Positions 1-39,444 of a stretch of 64,000 bases of DNA are shown piece after piece. The notes below the pieces were generated by a model, which did no database searches, was not told where the DNA came from, and saw nothing but the letters and a program-made list of their open reading frames with translations. A program made the position numbers and the translations under genes. Each line of letters opens with the position of its first letter. Position 1 is the stretch's first letter. The stretch comes from Ischnura elegans (taxonomy: Eukaryota; Arthropoda; Insecta; Odonata; Coenagrionidae), in assembly GCF_921293095.1 (NCBI RefSeq), contig NC_060247.1, positions 115,215,111 to 115,279,110 on the forward strand, written 5' to 3'.

Positions 1-2562
1 TTGCACATGTGGTGAGTGTGCACTGGTGTTGTGTAAAAGTGTGCGAAAGGCCCGGGTGCATGTGCTCTAAATGGTGCTTTTAAGTCAATTTGCTGTGCAT
101 CAATTCAAAGCATAGGTTTTTTATTATTGCCAGAAGATTTAACCTACAGACTAAACACATTTGATACATAGAAATTATTTTATTGCTCTGACTTAGCCTT
201 CGTACATCTAACTATGGGCCCAAAGAAGCCTAAATGGTGTAGCTTGGCCGGAAGTTGACGTATGCACCAGTGAATTTTTGGATACTTGTGTGTATGAAAG
301 GGTTATAGACTTTTATACAAAATGTACTGTATTGCATACCAACGAGTGCAGACTGTTAAAAAGTTATAAAAAATTGAAATTTGCTGTGTTATATGATCAG
401 GCTTTGTTAAATTTTGAACTCATGAGGTTCATGTTTGTACACAATCCAGAAAGGAGGACCAGAACAATTGTTACTATATTGACTGTGGACATGTGCATTT
501 CTGTACAAACTTTGGGGGCACTTTTAGTTTATAAAAAATGTAACATTAATTTTAAGCTTCTGGTAGATACATGGCTATTCTTAATACTCTGCAGCACTTA
601 ACCGTCTTCTACAAGAAACACTATGCTTAACTGACTGTTGACTCAAGACAACAAGTTTGTGAAGCCATTTTTATCATTCTGATTTTACTGCTGTATATAT
701 TTGCTTGTTGTGCCCTAATGGAAACCCTGAAATTGATATATATATAAATATATATACATATATAAATATATCTAGAATTTTAGGTTAGTGTCTCTCTTCA
801 AAGAAATTATTATTTATTTGGGTAAAGAGTTGTTCTGTTATTTCCAGATACTATGTGAGAAAATGAGAGAAATGGAATGAAGCACTATATTAGTTGTCAT
901 TTTGCCAAGACTGCTGTGAATATAATTGTATAAATAGATCATCATGCTTCTCAGAGAACCTAATTTTTTGTGAAAAGCAAATGTTTCATAACTTGATCAC
1001 ACTTAAGCTGATGGTGGGCGGCTGCACAAAGAACGATGGGTTTACTGTTTTGTCTTAGTGCTCTCTGCCTTCAGAAGACCAACCAATGCCAGCCATGGAA
1101 CTTATATACATGTATGTTACTGCTCACACGAACATGGATGTATATATTCCAGAGGATTCCCATTGGCAAGGAGAGCTAGTGGCCTCACTCACTGTTTGCC
1201 TTTTTGTATACAGTAGACATAACTAATAGTTCTTAAATATGAAAACGTAGCCTCAACCTGTTATTCTTCATTGATATTGAATGGAGCAAATGGGAACTTT
1301 TAAGAACTGTTTTAAACTGTTAACAGACTAGGTTGGCATATTGCATCAACACATAATGGAAATGGGGTTTAATGACCCACAACCTATTTTCTGTCCAGAT
1401 GCTTGATGAAGATAAAACTTCGAGATGCTCTTGTACAGACATAGATTTAGCATAGTAATTAGCCTTGGATCAAACTTTGAGGACCTTGTGAAACCTTAGA
1501 ACAAAACTTGAAAAATATGAGGTGAACTGAAACCACCTAACCTGGAAGAGACTAGTCGACGCAGAAGAAGGACAGAGTCTCATCTCTGTCAGTGTGTTCT
1601 ACAACATGGCAATTCAGATATTGTATGAGTATTTGCAACCGTAGCCTGAATGATTCTTGTGTGTCCTTGCCTAAGGAAGTGTTATCTAGTTTTGTGTTCA
1701 GGTTTATAGCTAGAAGTTGCAATCCTGAATTCTACTGTTCGTGGTTTAAAGGGGTTACTGGTCCACCATCTGGAATGTTGAACTTGTGGTCTATTGACAT
1801 GGATTTTTAAGGCCAGGGAATCTGTTGCCAGTATTACCAATCTCAAAAAAATACTCATTTGCCAGCATCATTTGTAATATATTCGAGCTCTGTGTAATAT
1901 AACACCACCACCCTTCCACAAAGAAAATGACTGTGCTTTTAAAGGAATTTGTGCATTACTTTCATTTTGTCTGTTGACTTGTGCACACCTCCTCCTCCCT
2001 GCGTCAACGCTAAACTATGGGATAAGCCAACAACACCATAGGAAAACACAATGGGACTGTGGTATAGCTGCCTTTAATTACAAAGATCAACTTACAAGAA
2101 GTCTGGAATACATCCATCATAACATTTTCACAGGAAAAGTAAACATCACCAACAATATCATAAACTCGATACTTTTGAAGAACTTGGTTCAATTCATAAA
2201 AACTTCTTATCACATGAAAAATTGCTACAATCAGTCTTGATTTCTTCTGCATCAGGAGATTGTTTTTTTAACGAAATATCACAGGGCCATGATTGTTCCC
2301 TTAAATATCATAGTAGATTTACAAATAGTACAAAAATAGAGGCTGATCTATGCCATAAACAAATTGGTGCCACTCATAGTAGAATACAAGCTTCTCTTTT
2401 ATAATATACACGTGGGATTGACGAGATAAAAAATGGCCAGTTATTAGTTGGTTCACTGAGCACTTAAAAGGAATGTTGCAAATTCCTCTTTGTAGAGGAT
2501 TGGATACCAAAAATTCTCATTTTAATTGGAAGATAAGAACAAGAATTCACGGATTAAATGTC
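1..2562. other. non-coding stretch downstream of LRRC58
   Basis: No convincing exon on either strand. The sequence is AT-rich with a TA microsatellite near 737-775. It lies directly 3' of the LRRC58 stop on the minus strand, so part of it is probably LRRC58 3' UTR; minus-strand AATAAA signals occur at about 813-818, 178-183 and 120-125. The 107-codon open frame at 278-601 has no recognisable motif and looks like chance. Part could also be the 3' UTR of a plus-strand gene to the left of the window. Confidence 0.4.
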
Positions 2563-5500
2563 TCAACCCAGGAGAACCTTTTTCATCATATCATTTGAGA
2601 GCGAGCATTCTTCTGCCGAGTCAGCATTCACATTTTCCATACATTTGGAGGAGCAAAGGTAATGAAGAAGTGGGATGCGGTACTTCCCACAAAAATCGAC
2701 AAATTTTATGTGTTCTATTCTGTTGTCAAAGAAAACACCTGGAATGAAAAATAATGCTGTTTAATTTTTTTGTGCTTGATCATTGACCAAAAGTAAATTT
2801 GTTAATATATAGTGAATTAGCCTAGATCATACGAAACAGGATTTCCAAAACTGATGGTTTAAAACGAAGTTGTACCAGCATAACGCACATGGGCTTCTGG
2901 CAGTATTGAAGTTTTTTCAGCAGGATGCCATATAGACTGTGCTGACTTTTACGAAGGCATCACTTGCAACAATGTTGTGTTTAGCATTTGATGTGTTAAA
3001 AGCTAGCCTTACTTTAAACCTTCAAAGAAAATCAGCATAATCTTGACAACTGATGGTAATTTACCAGATCTAAAATCTTAGGACAGAACTCCCTTATAAA
3101 AACCAATGTAAAACACATTCAGATGTGGTTATCATAAGTTATTTAAGTTCATTTAACTTTGTGCTCGGGCCTTCTAATGGAACCGTAGTGTTCATTCCTC
3201 ATGAATATACAAAATTATTCAGATGCAACTTTAGTTAATTTCTGACATTTAATATGAATTTTATGCTTTTTTTTAACCATTTCTCTTTGCCCCCAATCTC
3301 CTTTCTCTTGAAATTCTCCATTATAAATTCTTATAGAAGATAAAATCAATATCAGGAATTTGTGATAAATGCCACCCAAACAACACAAAACATGAAGGCT
3401 ATCTTGAACATTCAATCAATTTATTGGACATTGAAAATGTTCAGTTAGACCTGTTCATAAGACATTAGATAACATTATCCATATCTACTACTGCCAATTA
3501 CTGCTGTGACATTCGCATGTCATAGCAGAAACATAGACAAGCATTGATAATCTTGATCTTAAAGACTATCTACTGTTTGGACAGAATTATGTATACTAAT
3601 AATAAATACACAAAATAGGAAGTACATAACTTGTCTTAATTGTTACTTATCTTCTCTGTGTGGATATTGAGTTTTGTTTATCGGTACTTATAGGTTGGCT
3701 AGGTATACAATTAATAAGCCAATAAAGGTAGATTTGAATATTCCAACAATAATTCTCGACTGTTACGAATGGTCAGTCTGACCAGTTTAGAACATTCAAG
3801 GTTCCATCATGGATCATTGTTCTGCTGCGTGGGAATCAACATCATCTTTAACAATCTACTGTTACCACATCACAGGCTAAAACAAGAGAATATCCCACCA
3901 AAACTGACCCAGAACACCACCAATACCCGCCTAATTACAAAATAATGACCATTAATGAAAGAAAAACCCTTGAATTCCAGATACGCAGCCTTTCACAGAC
4001 ACCTAAACTATTGTAATACAAGATGACAAACAGTGCCATTTTAAATCACCTCCTAAAACTCACTATTCTGCAACTATTTATCTTTTTAGCAGTTAATATC
4101 AGATAATTAGCCACAAAAAACTTCTACATGGAGAGAAAACTTTTCACATATACAAAAGACAATTCTAAGTTAGGGTGGTGGCCCATTTTCCAGCGCATAA
4201 TTCATAAACACTGATATCAATTTTGAAAGTAAGTTGCAACCACTGAAAAACAATGGAATAAGCTCAACACTTCCTTGGCACAAAAACATTCTATCCAATC
4301 ATTAATGCTGAAGTGTCTAATAGTAGATAATTCCTGGGGGGTAAGCCATTACATTTATAAAGGTTTCAAACTGACTTTTTCATAAAATCATAGACCATAT
4401 TTGGTTAACACACATGAAAAAACAATATCAGCTGCATGGTGACTAGGACTGTAGCCAGGATTATTGGTCAGGGGCAACAGACAGTTCAGGTTGAGCAGCA
4501 AGTATACATTACTGGGTATAGTGAATACGATTGTAAAATCTTGCAGTTCGAGTGGCCTAGGTTTGGTGCCGCCTGGCCGTGATGGTGACATATGATGCAT
4601 TGATTCAATCGTGGAAAATAATGCAGAAGAAATTTCAAGAACAAGAAAAATGATACAAAAAAGGATGAGGTGAAAGACTACGTAGTTTAACAGAATATCC
4701 TATATGTATGTTTAGTAATTCAAATGGCTACATTTTACCATATGTTGTAACATTATGGATTGAACTTTCCCTCAACATAGCCACTAAAAAACGTTTAAGT
4801 CATGAGCAGTCTTACTGAGTGCCCCGCTGTCATTTTTATACATTGCTCAAATCCATGAAGCAGCCTGCAAGTATTTATGCAGTTCTATTTCCTAATTATA
4901 AATTGAATTTCAAAAGCATGGAATCCAAATTATAACAACAAACACAGTTACTAGAAACCTTGATCACATCAATACATTCAGTATACCAGCACCACTGTGC
5001 ATGTGAGGAAATTTAAAATTTTCCCAGCTTTTCCTGACACAGTAATCTTGATAAAATTTTATAGATGTGAATCACGTTTTATATGCCAAGGATACAAATT
5101 TTTATGACAACAAAGACTTTAGGAAACCCCTCAAAGAAAGAATGATGCCTCTTAAAGTTTGGAAAAAAAATTAAATGTGAAAAGCACGAGTATTTTCATT
5201 ACAACGATATCAAATAATTAAATCAATAAGCAAAATGTAACATGCATGACTATAAGAAGCTGTAAACTGGAAGACATTACCCAATTTGAAATAATTTTCA
5301 TAATAATCATTGGCACACTGAGTATGCTAGCATGACTGTTCATGTTTTGCCAAGAGGAGCTGCTGAAGGAATAATGCCATAGGTGGAGATACTGATGTCA
5401 CTTAAACCATTCCTATACCTGCCGGCATACAGTATGTAATGTATCTGATTAGATTGCATAACACGCAAGATGGCTTTTCCTCGAGTGTATGCCCAAAAAT

Positions 5501-30870: not shown

Positions 30871-31866
30871 TATTATTATAGTATTCCACCGATTAAGGTA
30901 GGTTTCCATGGAGTACTTGAGAAGCATTCTGGGAGCCTACCTTGCATTCAAACTACTAATCCCTTTCAATCCATCTAAAAATCCTATTCTCTTCCTTCCC
31001 CTCCCTCGTTTACCTAACATTCTACCCTCTAACACCATTTTCGACATCCCCTTCCTGCAAAGTACTCGCTCCATCCACACTTTCTGTCTCCTCCGTATCT
31101 CATATAAAAGTTGCCTCTCCTCAACCACCATGTGCACTACGTCATTTCTCCTCTCTGTCCATTTAATCTCTATTCTTCTCCATACCCACATCTCAAATGC
31201 CTCCAATCTTCTCTCGTCCTCCTTCCTCAGTGTCCACGTTTCCGCACCATAGAGAGTTACACTCCAGATATAACTCTTCACTAACCTTTTCTTTAAACTC
31301 TTACATAATCCTCTCATGAGATCCTTCCGGTTCATGAACACTGTCTTTGCTCTCAACCTTCAATCTCTCCAGCCTGTTTCTTCCATCAAACAGATCTTCC
31401 ACATTCCTACCATGTACTCTGTGCATCTTCTCGCTCGGTTAGCATCCTCCCATCTTTAGCCTTAATTTTAGACATGGCTTGTCCTCTTTTGCTGCCTGAT
31501 AGAGGCTTTACTTTGGCGTTCTATGTCCCTACCTCTCTTTCCTTCTGGAACTTTTCCATTTCCTCACACTGTCATTTCCACCAAGCCTCCCTTGCCCTCT
31601 TAGTTTCACGCCGTAATGGATTCTTGAGTCACCCCATACTTTCTTTTGCCCTGCTCTGTGTCCATGTTCTTCCACTCCCTTCTCTCCTCCATTTATTTTA
31701 CCATTGCCTCTGTAACCCAAGGCCACAGCTTTGACCATTCCGTTTTGGTATTATCCCACCCTTTCTCTACAGTCTGTGTACTTCCAATCTCCCGTGTACT
31801 AATGTCCACTAGTTCCTGATATTATCTCCTCATAGTCCCCTTCAGCGCTTCTACATTCCATTTCCT
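30871..31866 (-). mobile_element. LINE, 3' part, internally deleted (family A)
   Basis: The minus strand encodes MNRKDLMRGLCKSLKKRLVK and LYGAETWTLRKEDERRLEAF, the end of the reverse transcriptase region shared with the plus-strand copy at 43030-49340. Further 5', 31530-31620 matches the endonuclease-RT linker of that copy (AGGGCAAGGGAGGCT). The RT core between these two parts is missing, so there is a large internal deletion. The 3' end (CCTTAATCGGT then AATACT and TAATAAT) is the same as in the other copy. It is joined at 31866 to 5' UTR sequence of the same family in the opposite orientation. Confidence 0.75.
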
Positions 31867-31931: not shown

Positions 31932-32366
31932 GGGGCGGAATTCTGTACACGGATACCGACGATCGTCGGTGTCGGTAGCTACCGACGATCGTCGGTAGCA
32001 CCGATAGAGATGTGATTCACAAAACGCCGCTACCGACAGATTGTCGGTGCAACCGACAAATTCGTGACGTAATGCTTTTGTCGGTACGAAAGTGGCACCC
32101 GCACGCGAGGCTAGGCGCCTCGACCAATCATATTTCCCCTTTGTTTGCATTAAACAAATGAGGCTCCGAAAACGCCATCTGTTAGGGTGCCTTCATAGCT
32201 CGGCGTTGCGTACTTGGGGGCGGAGCTAACTCATCGCAGCAAGTTGGAGCCCTTCACAGGTCTGCGTTGCGAAAACAAATGAAAAGCAAAAAGCGTTGGC
32301 TCCTAAAAATCGGCCTGTGAGCATATCATCTTATGATTTCGAACCAAACGCACAATAAATATGTTG

Positions 32367-33053
32367 TTTTCTGCATGTTTACCCAATTTCATTTCTTAAA
32401 ATGTTCTTCTTAACTACAAATAGCATTTGAAGTTAATATGGCGACCATAAAGTCGATAATAATGCATGTAGTGATGGCCCTTGCCTATGCATTATTATGA
32501 CCTTTAAATTTTATTTCCTAACTCGGAATATTCGAAAAATAGCTAATTACAAACACGCAATGAACATGAGTAACGTGGAATGCTATCAGGAATATTTATT
32601 AATGATAACTATTGTTCAAACAGATTGTCCTTGTCATGTTATCTAAATAGCTCTGAGTAGATCATGAGGGCACAATTATTGGATATAAAATGGAATTTTA
32701 ACGACCTTATTTCTGCATGTTTACCCAATTTCATTTCATAAAATGTTCTTCTTAACTATAAATAGCATTTGAAGTTAATATGGCGACCATAAAGTCGATA
32801 ATAATGCATGCAGTGATGGCCCTTGCCTATGCATTATTATGACCTTAAAATTTTATTTCCTAACTCGGAATATTCGAAAAATAGCTAATTACATACACTC
32901 AATGAACATGGGTAACGTGGAATGTTATCAGGAATATTTATTAATGATATCTATTATTCAAACAGATTGTCCTTGTCATGTTATCTAAATAGCTCTAACT
33001 GAGTAGATCATGAGGGCACAATTATTGGACATAAAATGGAATTTTAACTACCT
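32367..33053. repeat. 342-bp tandem duplication inside element 2
   Basis: 32367-32708 and 32709-33053 are direct copies (for example TGGCGACCATAAAGTCGATA in both) at about 97 percent identity by eye. Differences are single substitutions and one 4-base insertion (CTAA) in the second copy. A recent local duplication. Confidence 0.9.
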
Positions 33054-33341
33054 TAGCTACCAAAAAGCACCTCTCACGCTGTATTTAGCTTTTGTTACCA
33101 TTTACGGGTACGAGTTACGCTAATCTATGCTCCTCAGTGATTGTAATCTAATTTAGGGTTAACATTTGTCTTATGTTTAGGAAAGATGCTAAATATCTAA
33201 TCTGAACACTTCAAAATAATAGTAAATAATGAAATAAATAGCATTTGCCACTCCCATTAGAGCTAATCTTGCATATTTGTACACCCAGAAACAAACACCA
33301 ATTCGAAATCGTCGGCGTACTGCCGCCTTGACGCAGAGAAT

Positions 33342-36068
33342 GGGGGTGCGGTCCAATGAATGCTACTTTCGCTACCAGACGCTACAGACGGAAGTGCTCC
33401 GGAGCACCGGTCCATAGGCGCTACGTTCGCTACGAGAATTTCTTTTCGGACCGGTCAGGAGCGACGTCAAGATGGCGGAAATGAACGAGGGTGGGCAAAC
33501 TGGGATTATGAAATCGAAGATGTGGTTTTAATTGCGAATTGAGGTGACTATGATCATTGAATATTAATAAATATGTTTGAATATCATTAAAATGAATTTT
33601 ATTTTTCATTATCGAGGCTCCACATAGGAAAGGAAGAAACTTTGGACTGTATTTCTCACACCAACCCTCGCCTACCCTTCTCAATGAAGCTCATTACCCT
33701 AGTAAAGGAAAAAGTAGGTACTCTACCGTTTTCCCAGTTGAAACATATTAACTTATCATGGTTAACGACTATTAAAAAACATTAATCTATTTCATGTGTA
33801 TCCTATTTTTCTTCAGATTTTAATTTATGGCATGAGTAAATTTGTCGATATATGTTCTTACAATCCTTTCTTTATATTACATGCCCCTTTTAATAATTTT
33901 TGTTGCCTTTTGTATGTAAAGGCTGCTTCCAAAGACATTTGAGTTCATTTCGGGGGAGATACGAGAATGTTTGTCGATATTTAGTTCTTGCTATATATTT
34001 ATTTAAATCACAATTAAATTTACATCTATTTACTAAGTGCGTCTACTCCGTTACTTCGTAGTCACTTATATAGGAGAAAGGCGTCCACATTCAGCGTCCA
34101 TCATCTGCAACGTGAGTAAACTCTCCATTGCCTCAGTGCATTCCCTTCGAATTTCCGCCAAAAACTGACTCGCTCCTCCGCTGACCCAAGTTTTCAGGGG
34201 AGCGTCTGGAGCTGGTCCGGAGCGAGGCGGGAAACGGGTGTATGACGTTTGCCGTGACGTCACAGCCTAACCTGTAGCGCTCCGTAGCGAATAACGGACC
34301 GCTTGGTGGCGCTCCGAAGCATTGGTAGCGTTCAACGGACCGCACCCTGGGTGCATCCAGGGGGAGCTCCGCTCACTGAGCGGAAGGTGAGCGAACCACC
34401 ACTCTCCCCCTGGATGCGACCGCTCACCACCCGATCACTAGTGAGCGGCCGCCATATTTGTGAGCGTACTCCGGGTATGATCACCTCGCTCACCGACCAG
34501 TGAGCGGCGGCGCGAGTTCAAAATGGTGCCGAAGAACTGTCGAGTCGAGCAACCGTATTAATTATACATTGTAACGTATCGAACGCTGGATGACTTATAC
34601 GTAATGTAGGCATATTAAATGCGATTGGCAGAAGGCCTTTTGTTACGTATTTATTTACTAAATTAGGTAGCCAAAATATTATTCTGCGGTGGAATTTTGT
34701 CGTAAGCCAGGTAAAGTTCAGATGTAGCCTTCGCTGAAAAATGGATTTTCGAGTTGAAATGTGTTTTTAATTCTTTATTAATATTTCATAGGCTTCAGAT
34801 AAATTGAAATATATCTATATACGTAAATCGCGGGGTATTACTTGTCCGCTTAGTCAAAAAATAAGGCGTGAGTAATTTTTCTCCCGGGTTAACTAAGTAA
34901 TTGCTTCAACATTGCCTTCAGGCCGTTTTACACGGGGGACGTCATTGCGCAATAGCTGAAGTATGTATGAAGTTAAAATCAAAATTGCATCGTGTAAAGC
35001 GGTGAATTTCTATAACACACGCGAGAATGATCGTACATAAGGTACCTTTATAAATATTGGTCTTCTGGTAGAGAAACATATATTGCAGTGATATCAGGGT
35101 TAAGAGTACAACCTTTCATGTGACCTTTGACAAAGTGAGTGGCATACATAAAGTAGACAGAACTAGAAATGTTGAAGGTTAGAGGCTAAATCTATTATGT
35201 CAATAAAAAGTTGGCATCAAGCAAGTTGTTCAGCGATTTTAAAAACCCTTAAAACTACTCGCTGGCGAACGACAAGAAGATATAAGAAAAATTTGTTTGT
35301 CATCAGCAGGAACATGAACATTAACCCGAGCACATTCAAAGTCCATTCCTCAATTAGAAGCTCATGTGGCACATAGCTCACTTCAAAAGTAATGTCAGAT
35401 TTGGTTAGTACGATAACACCAGCATTTTTTTAATTTGACCGGTTTACCAGCACTTCCTCAAAACATCCGCCACACTACGTCCCGTAATGCTGAGATATAA
35501 CTTCATCATTAGTCACCCGATGTTCACAAACAGTTTGTTGTGATAATAACGTCTACTGCTGTCCTTGATCAATTATTAAATCTCATTCAAGAAACTATAA
35601 GACGAAGCGGATTTCACGGAATTAGCAAATGTGAAACTATTGCTTTCTAAACATGGGAAAGACGTCCATTTTAGTGCAAAGACCTCTTTTTTCAAGACTT
35701 CAATGTCAGGCGCCAGATTCCCAACGAAATATTTGGACGATTGACACAAAAGGCATTTCCAATAAATATCACGGGACTCGTAAAGAACTGTTAGCGATAA
35801 ATCCTTAAGGCCCGTACATTAAGAGTGATATATATTCGGGACAGAGTCACAAGGTATGAACTTATCACAGGAATTAAAGGATATTTCGCAGCCGCTACAC
35901 GAAAGTAAACACAAGCGCTGGGCGCCATATTGAATGTTTTGCATTTCAAGTTCCCCACCAAAGCGCTCACTGAGCATTCACCATGCGGAGGGATGTGATC
36001 GCTCAGTGAGCGCTGACGTCACAGTCCGCTCACTGATCAGGGAGCGATCACTCCCCCTGAATGCACCC
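33342..36068. mobile_element. TIR element 4, nested in element 2, interrupted by element 3
   Basis: Ends are GGGTGCATCCAGGGGGAG and, inverted, GGGTGCATTCAGGGGGAG. CGCTCACTGAGCG-type palindromes recur at 34370-34510 and 35960-36050. Element 3 has inserted two bases inside its left terminus, so the first bases are at 33342-33343 and the rest resumes at 34348-34351. Own length is about 1.72 kb. No clear target duplication and no transposase. Confidence 0.75.
33344..34347. mobile_element. TIR element 3 (1,004 bp), inserted in the terminus of element 4
   Basis: Left end GGGTGCGGTCC and, inverted, right end GGGTGCGGTCC, with continued similarity through TGAAYGCTAC. TGG flanks both sides (33341-33343 and 34348-34350), a 3-bp duplication. 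Subterminal motifs are CGCTAC and GCTCCG with their complements. No coding potential seen. It is the innermost element of the stack. Confidence 0.8.
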
Positions 36069-37571
36069 ATTGAACAGGTTCAGTTTTTCTGCGACGACGC
36101 AGCGAGCTGGAGACGTGACGTCATCAATTCTCAAAGACGGGCTCTGATTGGCTCGCTAGCCGCGGCGTCAACGCAACGCCGAACTGTGAAGGCCCCCTTA
36201 TTCGTCAGCCCGCGAAGAAGTTAAAAAGAGTTGATCACTGCTTTGTGAGATATTTACGATGTTTATTCACTCTGCGAACACAATTTCTTACTCCCGTTGG
36301 TGCGATGTGGCTTGTATTCCGAGATTTTGCCGTATTTACCATAGGATTTTTTCTAGCCCAAGTAAAAAAGCCTTTATATTCAAGGATTCAACGGTCGTTG
36401 ATAGTAGAACACCGGCAACATTTGGTGCTCAATGTATTGGAATTTTCAAGTATAATTGTCTTGAAGAGGACTTTGTCTGCTACATAATTGTTCACCTACG
36501 CTTATTATAATTGTATTCTTGGGATTAGCAGTGACGAAATTATTTTTATTAGTATTGTAACAATGTACCTTCATCTTCAGCCACGGTTTGTTTACATCGT
36601 TTGCCTCATTGTTCGCCGTAAGTCCGATAATTCCACAAGGGTAATTATTTAGTTAGAAAAAATTTTTGTCGCTTGAATTCACATTTTGGGCTATTTAAAA
36701 TACATTCGTTGATAAAAACACCGAGATTCCGCGGATGTCACGGAAGGTATCATCAGTATCATCGCGTCAAGTGTTGTGATTGTGAACTTGAGTGACATAC
36801 TTTACGCTATCTATTTGGAAGTGTTAACTTTTGCATTTTGATACCATTTGTGTGTTATTTCAAACAACTTTGCTTTGATATGACTTTGACTAAATATGCT
36901 TGATTAGTGTTAATTTGTGATATACCGTTGGAAGTATGAAGGTTTTCTCGTGTTGAAATGAAATTTTTGTAGTTTTATGATGAATAATTCATTAAATGTT
37001 TCCTTGTTTCGTGCAATCATTCTTTTTATTTGCCCCTTTCTACCGATGGAATACACGGTACGTACCTACTCAGTGCTCTTATAGTAATAATGAAAATCTA
37101 TCTTGAAGTCCCGTATGGTGTTTGGTTAGTATAGTGAAGTGAATTCAGCATTAATTTTACGGGAAGTTTTGTGCACCGGTAACGACGTCAAAGAGTGAGA
37201 GGAGTTAAGTGATGTCATTTATATTCTTCTAAAATATAGTAGCAATATGCTTTTTCTATTTCGTCGTTGCTGTCTGATGCTCTCAAGAGTGCTTACGAAG
37301 GTAGGAGAGTTATTTTCATTATAAACCCCATTCTCAGATGCTCACATAGGGTATTGAAGTTAATATAAAAGTGAACGAAATGTCCACGTATATATTTCAT
37401 TGAAAGTGCATCAATAGGCATTCGTTTTTATTGAAAATATAAATTAATTTCGGATCCAAACTTTACGAATCAACAATAGATACCTATCGTGTCTTGTTGT
37501 GAGTAATTTAAAAGCAAAGCAATACGTTACATAGGTACTTAAAATTACGGAATATTTATGATGTAAAATAC

Positions 37572-39035
37572 AGCCGATGTCCCACGGTCAAATTTGCGTC
37601 AAAATATTTTGATCAAAATTTTTGTCCAAAAATTTTGATGCAAATATTTTGATACAACTGGACTGAGGGTGTCCCACGATGCATCTCATTTTGATCAAAA
37701 ACAAACGAAAGACGATATTTATGTAAACAACTAGGAAACTTGTGGAGGTGGAGGATTCTTTCTTTTTAAGCAGGCGAAATTGTTTGAACAGGCCTCTTGA
37801 AAATTAAAGATGCGAAAAAAAGAAAACAGAAGGAATGCTGAACTTGGCCTTGGCTGGAAAAGGGGTATGAAAGCGTTGGAATAAGCATGCTATACATGTT
37901 GGAGAAGGAGTTGGTCGCCGATGTTCCCGTTTATTATCGATAATAATTGACGACAAGGCAGGATATTTTCATGTCCCTTATCAGCAAGGTTGAGGGCAGA
38001 ATAAAACGCCAGGATACAAACGTGAGGCAGTTTATTCCCGCGAGGAAAATGTTATTAATAAATGATGGACATTGTGGTTGAGGAGATGTTATGAATAGTG
38101 CTGTAAGCGTGCATTTAAATCACATTTTTCTCTCCTAATCTAGCAGTTTCTAAAATAAGGTCCTTATCCTATTATCATAGTAATAGAAACGGGCAGCTGT
38201 AGTGTTTCACAGGTACAATCGTCAGTTCATGTTAGTCATTTCTCCAGCTGCTCGCTCGCATTGTATACCTTCCATAAAGCGTAAAATTCGGCCTCGATAC
38301 CTTAAGTAAATCTTTTATTATTTCCAAAACATCCCTCCTGGTATTGCGATTCTAAAGATCGCTTCCTTTCTATTTAAGATCAACTGATTATTACAGATTT
38401 CCTAGTTGAGAGCTTCCATCGCCTATCACTAAGACAAATTTTTGCTCATATTTACCTTTAGGGCCACACCAGGCGATGAAATAGACGATCACGAACGTAT
38501 ATATACATTTGAAATAATGTTTTGTGAATTCACTTCGTGGTATGGTGATATTATGAATTTAAAACTAAACCTTTTAGTATTCCATACGATACTAATGAAA
38601 AAACTCAACCGGTTTCGATCTTTTCAGGTCCTTATCTAGAGGTTTACGATTAAGATAACGACCTGAAAAGGTGGAAACCGGTTGGGTTTTTAATGCATAC
38701 TGTGTGGAATACAACAAAGTTTATTTTTGTGTCCATAATATACATAATTATTAATTAAAATACTCATGCAGACGATAAATAAGTTAAACGTATTTGGCCT
38801 GTGTGTCAGCGCTTGGCGATGCTTTTTTGTCAAAGGCCCTGTGATTGGTTGGTTTCATCCAATTGGATGAAAATTTAGAACCTGTCCTATCCATTTGTGC
38901 AAATCGGTGATTTGTACAAACGATAGGACCAAAAGCTAGTTGGAAAAAATTTTGACCGTGGGACAGGGTGCGCGTCAGTTGCATCAAATTTTGATCAAAA
39001 TATTTTGACGCAAATTTGACCGTGGGACATCGGCT
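37572..39035. mobile_element. TIR element 5 (1.46 kb) with perfect 50-bp ends, nested in element 1
   Basis: AGCCGATGTCCCACGGTCAA and the following 30 bases are repeated without mismatch, inverted, at the right end. Just inside is an array of ATTTTGATCAAAAT-type palindromes on both sides. Perfect ends indicate a young insertion. Flanking TAC is seen on the left and TTAC on the right, so the duplication is uncertain. It contains an older 137-bp foldback at 38577-38713. No transposase. Confidence 0.85.
38577..38713. repeat. foldback with ACCTGAAAAGG...GGAAACCGGTTG core
   Basis: Arms of about 58 bp (38577-38636 and 38654-38713) are inverted copies with some mismatches. Each contains CAACCGGTTTC next to CTTTTCAGGT or its complement. 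This CTGA...GAAAC spacing recalls the hammerhead-bearing tails of Penelope-like elements, but the core is not intact. Confidence 0.5.
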
Positions 39036-39444
39036 TTACGCTATTGGAACGCATAATGTAATATACGTGTAACATTGGTAAAGTTAAATACTGCTCCCAC
39101 TATGTAAATTTTAAGTTTCAAGTGTTTAATCAATCATTTTTATTATGAATAACATACAATTAGAGCGCTTCCACGGATCTAGCGTCGTAGATTATGATTT
39201 AAAATCGTCAGCTAGGCCGAAAAGTGTAAACAAAAGTCCGCCATGTTGCTAAAAATTTGTCGGTAGGTCCTACCGAGCGTTTTGAAATCGTCGGTATGTA
39301 CCGACGGGTTTACCGACAACTGTCGGTGGAATAACGACAATCGTCGGTAAAACGTGTTTCCTGAATCGCTCGTACCGAGACTTATCGGTAGGACCGGCTT
39401 ACCGACACCGACAATCGTCGGTACGGTGTACAGAATTCCGCCCC

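Follow-up and report, generated by a model that had tools for sequence, protein, structure and literature searches.

A serial nest of five TIR elements in Ischnura elegans, four of them assignable by target duplications and ends to Harbinger-type groups

In a 64,000-nucleotide stretch of the Ischnura elegans genome (contig NC_060247.1; the whole stretch is referred to as the window), five TIR elements, E1 to E5, were found to interrupt one another. We consider it likely that five non-autonomous cut-and-paste transposons are serially nested in this region, four from different PHIS groups and E3 unplaced, and that the palindromes of the ends serve as docking sites and the pile-up is a by-product. 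Each of the five represents a mobile family of which the 1.72-Gb genome contains many other copies, and in the window E1 holds E2 and E5, E2 holds E4, and the left end of E4 holds E3 (Table 1). These host-guest relations had been proposed in a preliminary description made from the sequence alone, and are borne out by the ends, the TTA and TGG duplications and the genome copies; its premise that the ends move as units also stands, and all five recur genome-wide. The pattern of interruptions shows that E1 came first, with E2 and E5 entering E1, E4 entering E2, and E3 arriving last, onto the end of E4.

By their TSDs and ends, E2 and E5 are assigned to PIF/Harbinger (TWA), E1 to NuwaI (CWG) and E4 to a Pangu-type family (ANT), all within the Harbinger-type (PHIS) superfamily, following the group definitions of PMC4482050. 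For E1, E2 and E5 the superfamily rests on TSD and ends, because a coding relative was shown for E4 only. An initial guess of PIF/Harbinger, taken in a wide sense, holds for E2 and E5 and is nearly right for E1 and E4; E3, which has a free 3-bp TSD, is left unassigned.

Table 1. Positions of the nested elements and associated features in the window.
Feature	Position	Strand	Description
E1, non-autonomous TIR element	31932..39444		~2.03 kb without inserts; TIR GGGGCGGAATTCTGTACAC; NuwaI-type target CCWGG
E1 left subterminal array (TACCGACGATCGTCGGTA, CGTCGGT/ACCGACG)	31950..32100		motif 4x in end 160 bp, 0 in 1,626-bp interior
E1 right subterminal array	39258..39425		motif 4x in end 160 bp
TTA duplication of E2 in E1	left 32182..32184, right 36198-36200		uninterrupted E1 copy has a single TTA
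E2, TIR element	32185..36197		~1.29 kb excluding E3 and E4; termini GGGTGCCTTCATAG / CTGTGAAGGCCCCC; TWA; PIF/Harbinger type
342-bp unit, two tandem copies inside E2	32368..33055		direct repeats D1 and D4; both also in L003
TGG duplication of E3	left 33341..33343, right 34348-34350		read from the sequence
E3, 1,004-bp TIR element	33344..34347		ends GGGTGCGGTCC; 3-bp free-sequence TSD; across left end of E4
E4, 1,720-bp TIR element	34349..36068		ends GGGTGCATCCAGGGGGAG; ANT TSDs; CGCTCACTGAGCG arrays at either end; inside E2
E5, 1,464-bp TIR element	37572..39035		ends AGCCGATGTCCCACGG; TWA duplications; ATTTTGATCAAAAT arrays; inside E1

Results

Four of the five elements begin with GGG, as had been noted at the outset, and the first six bases, GGGTGC, are common to E2, E3 and E4. 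The earlier reading was also correct that no transposase is visible in the window copies: reading the 14 stop-to-stop frames of at least 80 aa around the nest revealed nothing transposase-like, and an RT-like frame left of E1, the one frame of the 14 put through a family search, had no Pfam match. The flanks of the window copies of E1 (CAC/TTT), E5 (TAC/TTA) and E4 (AAT/ATT) are not equal, so that the TSDs of these elements rest on sister copies. Reversed-pattern controls for the genome-wide end searches with E1, E3 and E4 gave 0 matches each.

The inverted GGGGCGGAATTCTGTACAC termini of E1 lie exactly at 31932 and 39444, and with at most one mismatch allowed such ends occur 361 times in the genome (182+179); among the first 100 listed, 30 of 36 facing pairs are 1.95-2.10 kb apart. 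A 2,029-bp copy that is uninterrupted (L009/L010) matches E1 to the left and right of E2 and of E5. In 21 pairs outside the window, the central W of the NuwaI duplication CWG is equal in 17 (16 of 20 with L121/L122 and L123/L124, which are mirror images, taken as one), C is found at -2 in 20 and G at +2 in all 21, and the TIR likewise agrees with NuwaI (GGG start, 12-61 bp). Two empty sites, both paralogous, were recovered (L113/L114 versus L085/L086, and L029/L030 versus L141). The TIR itself is closed by C and G, so that a duplication of W alone (1 bp) instead of CWG is possible; a 5-bp CCWGG duplication was set aside, as the bases at -3 and +3 vary one-sidedly with the mirror base unchanged. 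Four long E1 pairs lie outside the window, and the two that were read were rejected as autonomous copies, L131 being an inverted dimer and L132 holding a piggyBac-like insert. Further odd-sized pairs measure 11.3 kb, 8.3 kb and 0.9 kb, the last too short for an autonomous copy, and none of 150 listed PF13359 places fell inside an E1 pair when compared by eye with the first 100 of the 361 ends.

At the E2 insertion site the uninterrupted E1 copy runs through with one TTA, which identifies a perfect TTA duplication around E2. A search with the first 316 bp of E2 yielded 1,191 first-look candidates (40 scored), and the TWA duplication of PIF/Harbinger is exact in the window and in three of five two-ended sister copies, the exceptions being L005 (TAA/TGA) and L008 (CTA, only with an extra G assigned to the element). 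The two parts of E2 are 99.9% and 100% identical to the L003 copy, with one base differing in 1,286 aligned; since so similar an E2 nevertheless holds E4 and E3, the families have probably been active recently. For E5, 1,827 first-look candidates were found, of which 40 were scored; the best sister copies are 98-99% identical, and TWA duplications flank seven of ten, including one copy whose terminal base is altered.

Exact E4 ends number 70+69 genome-wide, and sister copies at 29 loci are 94-98% identical (30 of 43 listed rows were cut out, one being the window copy). Equal flanks of the Pangu form ANT (AWT), and not the TWA of PIF/Harbinger, surround 22 of 24 copies, or 20 of 22 independent ones given that L057, L058 and L059 represent one event; L042 and L062 are the counted failures, and L043, L053, L060, L061 and L063, which do not have two clean ends, are omitted. 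E4 is also found at three places within a sixth TIR element. The search for autonomous copies between the same ends, proposed in the preliminary description, is answered for E4 only and by a related coding element, L133, in which the E4-type ends are separated by 8,973 bp and each is flanked by AAT. Its transposase matches DDE_Tnp_4 (PF13359; E=7e-35), so that the PHIS-type DDE expected of Pangu is present in this relative and not in E4 itself, and its second protein matches Myb_DNA-bind_4 (Myb/SANT; E=7e-12), where for Pangu PMC4482050 reports a second ORF without known motif. As the ends of L133 and E4 are only 82-88% identical, L133 is a relative of E4 and not its direct source. PF13359 gave 2,144 first-look candidates in the genome (150 scored); among those listed, the closest to the L133 DDE are on C4 and C6 (100%) and C8 (93%), the next reaching 62%, and all three adjoin E4-type ends, the distance to the right end being 2,765 bp in two cases. 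Against PDB the L133 DDE gave nothing meaningful (best E=0.15), against NCBIfam only weak IS5-family matches (best E=4e-4), and an HTH-like exon of L133 had no Pfam match.

E3 has 177+176 exact ends in the genome, and 40 of the 41 matches listed are full length and 98-100% identical (the other is 89% identical over 969 bp). Its TSD is 3 bp in 13 of 14 copies and free in sequence (e.g. TCG, GTG, CCC, CTC, GTT), agreeing with none of TWA, CWG and ANT, the TSDs of PIF/Harbinger, NuwaI and Pangu; E3 is left unclassified. Zator, characterised by a 3-bp TSD and a PF07592 transposase, is a candidate that agrees in TSD length; a PF07592 profile search gave 0 matches in the genome, but also 0 in control genomes. 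The groups hAT, CACTA and Tc1/mariner were set aside for all five elements by TSD length and ends. The E3 target is degenerate and palindromic, roughly CAY-NNN-RTG, with a preference of 2.18 bits compared to a maximum of 1.19 over 2,000 random draws, and leave-one-out scoring places 8 of the 11 sites outside E4 within the best 5% of background. The matrix omits the E4-associated sites on purpose, as well as L146 (same repeat as L111); the background sequence omits L043, L044, L057, L058 and L061, and the scoring of sites omits C8 (L134). TGACGTCA half-sites were also encountered near E3 insertions (8 in 3.8 kb of E3 flanks versus 0.57 per kb in other flanks), a signal that is not pressed because it is present in only 6 of 37 flanks. 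A degenerate palindrome without a fixed TSD core is not among the PHIS-group target rules in the passages of PMC4482050 considered.

Repeated motifs crowd the end 160 bp of the elements and are absent or nearly so from the interior (left plus right ends versus interior: E1 CGTCGGT, 4+4 versus 0; E4 GCTCAC, 7+3 versus 1; E3 GTAGCG, 4+3 versus 0; E5 ATTTTGA, 6+4 versus 0). Near-palindromes, defined by arms of at least 5 and a spacer of at most 3, were compared with 300 shuffles and are in excess in E1 (12 versus a mean of 2.2; 0/300 shuffles reach the count), E5 (18 versus 2.4; 0/300) and E4 (6 versus 1.5; 5/300), weakly so in E3 (3 versus 1.2; 44/300), and show no excess in E2 (3 versus 1.5; 71/300). 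Palindromes without a spacer number 3 in E1 (8/300), 6 in E5 (0/300) and 2 in E3 (13/300), with no excess in E4 (1; 88/300) and 0 in E2. The view that each element has a private palindrome array is accordingly upheld only in part: motifs are repeated in all five, but E2, with counts at shuffle level, has no palindrome array despite three GCGTTGCG motifs, and the array of E4 stands out clearly only if spacers are allowed. Private repeats also occur in other TIR elements of this genome, namely the E4 host in L057-L059 and the piggyBac-like insert in L132.

In alignment with L133, E4 motif positions are 96.7% identical, compared to 83.7% elsewhere (p=0.003, mask rolled), a conservation that fits protein-binding sites. 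The end palindromes are most likely docking sites for the element's own Myb-like protein or transposase, a role that the conservation of the E4 motifs supports. Each family would be moved in trans by the proteins of coding relatives, of which one was seen for E4 only, and would carry a private motif because its partner proteins differ.

Discussion

The clearest departure from random nesting concerns E3 and E4. Besides the window copy, E3 occurs at E4 ends three times genome-wide, against 0.0017-0.16 expected (P from 8e-10 to 6e-4, depending on the copy numbers assumed), within a 120-bp zone that was chosen after the cases had been seen. Such insertions make up ~2% of E3 copies counted by exact ends, and two genome-wide junction patterns, which catch part of the junctions, revealed no case beyond the four already known. 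In L043 and C9, E3 sits within an E4 array and is bordered left and right by E4 sequence, and the best position in E4 on a matrix built without E4 sites is the actual E3 site of L043, in the end array. Scores are poor at the window site (top 18%) and at L061 (top 17%). Reverse nesting, E4 inside E3, was seen once. The expectation that the elements prefer their own kind as targets thus survives in part and across families, for E3 at E4 ends, rather than as self-nesting.

The E3 preference for a degenerate palindromic target may explain part of this excess. The pile-up at ends would then be a by-product of E4 end arrays offering good E3 targets, a view that two of the E3 insertions at E4 support; open chromatin common to both families, or some other additional cause, would be required for the remaining sites. 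A broader version, in which the palindrome arrays of one family serve as landing sites for others, with E3 finding CAY-NNN-RTG enriched in E4 arrays, docking sites turning into hot spots, and nests growing from the ends inwards and some travelling as units, is put forward tentatively, and we are inclined to doubt it.

Chance nesting in a transposon-rich genome, where abundance alone produces the pile-up, is the simplest account for E2 in E1 and E5 in E1, and agrees with the abundance of Harbinger-type transposases (the 2,144 candidates above) and with the 88 flanks read, most of which hold no E1-E5 sequence. As an account of the whole nest we judge it unlikely, since for E3 and E4 it is disfavoured by the observed excess, with a zone set after the fact, and by the five E2 or E3 pieces found in flanks of E4 copies, four of which lie at or within 150 bp of E4 ends. 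Co-location through shared open chromatin or ectopic recombination, with no element recognising the end of another, would accommodate two E3 copies close to E4 ends, one lying 6 bp beyond the end (C8) and one at a distance of 78 bp (C4:93722663), the truncated E4 of L061, and the four of 22 E1 pairs read that share one right flank and differ in their left flanks; however, the insertions of L043 and C9 within E4 arrays, the former at the element's best-scoring target, render it quite improbable as a full explanation. Finally, a single new non-autonomous lineage of common palindrome-array design whose members target one another, as first proposed, could draw on the GGGTGC start of E2, E3 and E4, the repeated subterminal motifs of all five and the mutual interruption of E3 and E4, but is very improbable given four different TSD rules (TWA, CWG, ANT and free 3 bp), the Harbinger-type DDE and Myb genes of the E4 relative, and private repeats in TIR elements beyond the five.

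The nest makes the targeting of one transposon by another testable with real motifs, in that a guest matrix built from outside sites picks the site used inside the host. Furthermore, L133 combines an ANT duplication with a Myb/SANT gene, which suggests that the TSD-based split of Harbinger-type groups may not follow gene content.

Several known systems resemble parts of this nest. PIF/Harbinger elements and their MITEs (PMC4482050, PMC2836001) share TWA duplications and a first base of G or A with E2 and E5, and the two-gene layout of DDE transposase and Myb/SANT protein with L133, and PIF and mPing show a target preference beyond the TSD (PMC2836001), as does E3 beyond its 3 bp; E1, E3 and E4, unlike these, make no TWA duplications. 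NuwaI (PMC4482050) resembles E1 in CWG within CCWGG, a GGG start and a TIR of ~19 bp, although E1 is only 2.0 kb and has no recognised protein. Pangu (PMC4482050) is like E4 in ANT and the GG start of the TIR and like L133 in DDE_Tnp_4, but averages ~3.5 kb with a second ORF without known motif, compared to 9.0 kb and a Myb/SANT gene in L133. Harbinger3_DR (cited in PMC9710019) has, like the families here, an element-specific subterminal motif, in its case of 9 bp and with demonstrated binding by the Myb-like protein, whereas the palindromes described here are longer and their binding is predicted. ATon of Aedes aegypti (PMC3422177) is likewise non-autonomous, with TIRs, some subterminal palindromic motifs and a coding partner not found, but is shorter than 500 bp, is inserted between an A and a T, with AT as a possible TSD, and follows none of the TSD rules seen in E1-E5. 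In rice and maize, MITEs occur within other MITEs, sometimes at specific sites (Jiang and Wessler 2001, cited in PMC1925063); in the nest described here, by contrast, the host is a family with another TSD rule and the guests sit at or within its end arrays.

Nest architecture and mobility of the five families

In the 1.72 Gb of genome searched (110 contigs), the preliminary description of five terminal-inverted-repeat (TIR) elements nested in one another, E1 being the outermost, was upheld in the layout given below. An uninterrupted 2,029-bp copy of E1 (L009/L010) aligns with the window on either side of E2 and E5 and has one TTA at the E2 site. An E2 copy at another locus (L003) matches the window E2 at 99.9% over one of its parts and at 100% over the other. 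Left of E1, a 140-aa open frame (window 30937-31359, minus strand) resembles a non-LTR reverse transcriptase tail; a Pfam search with this frame returned no match.

Nested elements of the window, and E4-type end pairs around Harbinger DDE (PF13359) places
Feature	Position	Remark
E1	31932-39444	host of E2 and E5
E2	32185-36197	inside E1; interrupted by E4
E3	33344-34347	across left end of E4; TGG duplication
E4	34349-36068	inside E2
E5	37572-39035	inside E1
E4-type end pair	C6:535049-544021	around PF13359 at C6:540795
E4-type end pair	C4:920748-938641	around PF13359 at C4:935415

The ends also move as units, as had been supposed: the genome holds many copies of E1, E3, E4 and E5 ends or elements, as well as E2 matches, in numbers that are lower bounds because the searches score best candidates only. 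E1 ends with at most one mismatch number 182 forward and 179 reverse (controls 0), and among the first 100 ends listed, 30 of 36 facing pairs lie 1.95-2.10 kb apart. Exact E3 ends number 177 and 176 genome-wide, with full-length matches at 98-100% making up 40 of 41 among the matches listed, and exact E4 ends number 70 and 69. Of the 43 E4 matches listed, 30 were extracted: the window copy itself and 29 more with 94-98% identity. The best E5 sister copies reach 98-99%.

Several E1 copies have unusual surroundings. Locus L131 (C3:107311200-107315260) is a 4-kb inverted dimer of two fused E1 copies with E1 ends outermost, and coordinates alone place a back-to-back pair of E1 ends, one base apart, at C3:17234837-17234875. 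The right flank AGTAGGGGCTTTCTCTAACTCG is common to 4 of 22 E1 pairs read (L019, L116, L128, L131), their left flanks being different, and L032 holds a diverged copy of it without an adjoining E1. The E1 copy in L132 (~1491-5019) contains a piggyBac-like insert with TTAA-like ends, a weak DDE_Tnp_1_7 match (E=0.008) and GGACGCACCGGTGCGTCC palindromes of its own.

The same E4 recurs at three loci (L057, L058, L059) within a sixth TIR element, which has GGGCCCCCGCGCACTGGCAAC ends and GGCAACT/AGTTGCC repeats of its own. Both of its ends, with TTA on either side, are present in L057 and L059; L058 retains the right end, homology ceasing ~120 bp before the left. Since the outer flanks differ, this element has reached three sites with E4 as its cargo.

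Target-site duplications distinguish the families

The five elements had been proposed to form a single lineage, which their target-site duplications (TSDs) contradict by separating the families. The 3-bp flanks of E4 agree in 22 of 24 two-ended copies (L057, L058 and L059, a single event, included) and almost always read AAT or ATT; E3 has equal flanks of free sequence in 13 of 14. TWA flanks E5 in 7 of 10 copies. The window E2 is flanked by TTA, and 3 of the 5 sister copies of E2 with two ends have exact TWA, the exceptions being L005 (TAA/TGA) and L008 (CTA if an extra G is assigned to the element). E1 is flanked as CCW|element|WGG, the central base agreeing in 17 of 21 non-window pairs, or 16 of 20 because L121/L122 and L123/L124 are mirror images, and two paralogous empty sites carry a single CAG where occupied sites have two. 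Clean duplications are missing from the window copies of E1 (CAC/TTT), E5 (TAC/TTA) and E4 (AAT/ATT). As described in PMC4482050, PIF/Harbinger duplicates TWA, NuwaI duplicates CWG and has TIRs starting GGG, and Pangu duplicates ANT; by these rules E2 and E5 look PIF/Harbinger-like, E1 NuwaI-like and E4 Pangu-like, and E3 fits none of the three.

Subterminal arrays and a coding relative of E4

The motifs of E1-E5 are repeated within the end 160 bp and hardly present in the interior. Compared with shuffles, near-palindromes with spacers up to 3 are in excess in E1, E5 and E4, weakly so in E3 and not in E2; spacer-free palindromes show no excess in E4 (one, matched by 88 of 300 shuffles). Separately, TGACGTCA lies at window 34255, 36014, 36116, 40138 and 60741 and is present in the end regions of E3, E4 and E2; in other flanks it occurs at 0.077 per kb (10 in 129.8 kb), ~6x the base-composition expectation.

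Among the best 150 PF13359 places scored, those at C6:540795 and C4:935415 lie between E4-type ends, each 2,765 bp from the right one, and a third (C8:90695913) lies 4.0 kb from an E4-type end. The C6 element (L133) spans 8,973 bp with AAT on either side, and its frames match DDE_Tnp_4 (E=7e-35) and Myb_DNA-bind_4 (E=7e-12). Its DDE as query returned the same three places at the top (100, 100 and 93%), the next being 62%. L133 is a relative of E4 and not its source, because its ends are only 82 and 88% identical to those of E4. Array motif positions are 96.7% identical between the two (60 positions) vs 83.7% at the remaining positions of the end alignments (227; p=0.003), with p from below 0.001 to 0.042 under other motif definitions.

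Insertion of E3 at E4 ends

The further proposal, that these elements prefer their own kind as targets, survives in part: E3 is enriched at E4 ends, which concerns just ~2% of E3 copies counted by exact ends. E3 lies at an E4 end in the window, within the array at C5:124223257 (L043) and C9:106786458, and 6 bp outside the end at C8:12934142; in L061 it adjoins a truncated E4. In a 120-bp zone per end, 3 cases besides the window compare with 0.0017-0.16 expected, depending on whether the copy numbers assumed are strict or generous (P between 8e-10 and 6e-4, indicative values since the zone was chosen after the cases were seen). This count is a lower bound, as junction patterns detect only junctions near two 8-mers.

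Two further arrangements occur once each: E4 inside E3, with 95 bp between it and the E3 end (L044), and E4 ~5 bp from an E2 end (L060). Across 132 kb of sequence flanking E4 and E1 copies (88 stretches of 1.5 kb, L057-L059 entering as three), the remaining E1-E5 pieces were a second E2-like stretch in L060, E5 ~145 bp away from E1 (L034), an E1 pair with a spacing of 1.3 kb (L032/L033), part of a diverged E1 (L019) and short fragments in common (L062, L066, L068). An E4 subfamily (L049, L052, L055, L056, L063) has one E5-like end within, perhaps all that is left of an inserted E5. By coordinates only, an E3 pair at C1:11125351-11127643 exceeds E3 by 1,289 bp, the E2 length plus 3, and may be E2 inside E3.

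E3 also has a target preference, roughly CAY-NNN-RTG: 38 half-sites outside E4 give a matrix of 2.18 bits, whereas none of 2,000 random draws exceeded 1.19, and in leave-one-out scoring 8 of 11 two-sided sites rank within the top 5% of the background scores (the others at 9, 20 and 24%). The best position across the whole of E4, TCCGCTCAC|TGA|GCGGAAGGT, is the actual L043 site; the C9 site is in the top 0.9%, and the window (top 18%) and L061 (top 17%) sites are unremarkable. Positions above the 99% background score number 9 of 310 in the E4 end arrays vs 15 of 1,438 inside, a roughly threefold excess that is insufficient alone for the enrichment.

Relation to known systems

Titles and abstract openings of the literature matches listed mention none of these particular families. 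Nesting and end palindromes are not new as such, judging from what these sources describe: nested MITEs are known in rice and maize (Jiang and Wessler, cited in PMC1925063), and Aedes aegypti has non-autonomous elements with subterminal palindromes, their coding partner not being known (PMC3422177). PIF and mPing, like E3, are reported to prefer sequence past the TSD (PMC2836001). As for the arrays, their likeliest use is as putative docking sites for a Myb-like protein, as in Harbinger3_DR, whose Myb-like protein is described as binding a subterminal motif of 9 bp (PMC9710019).
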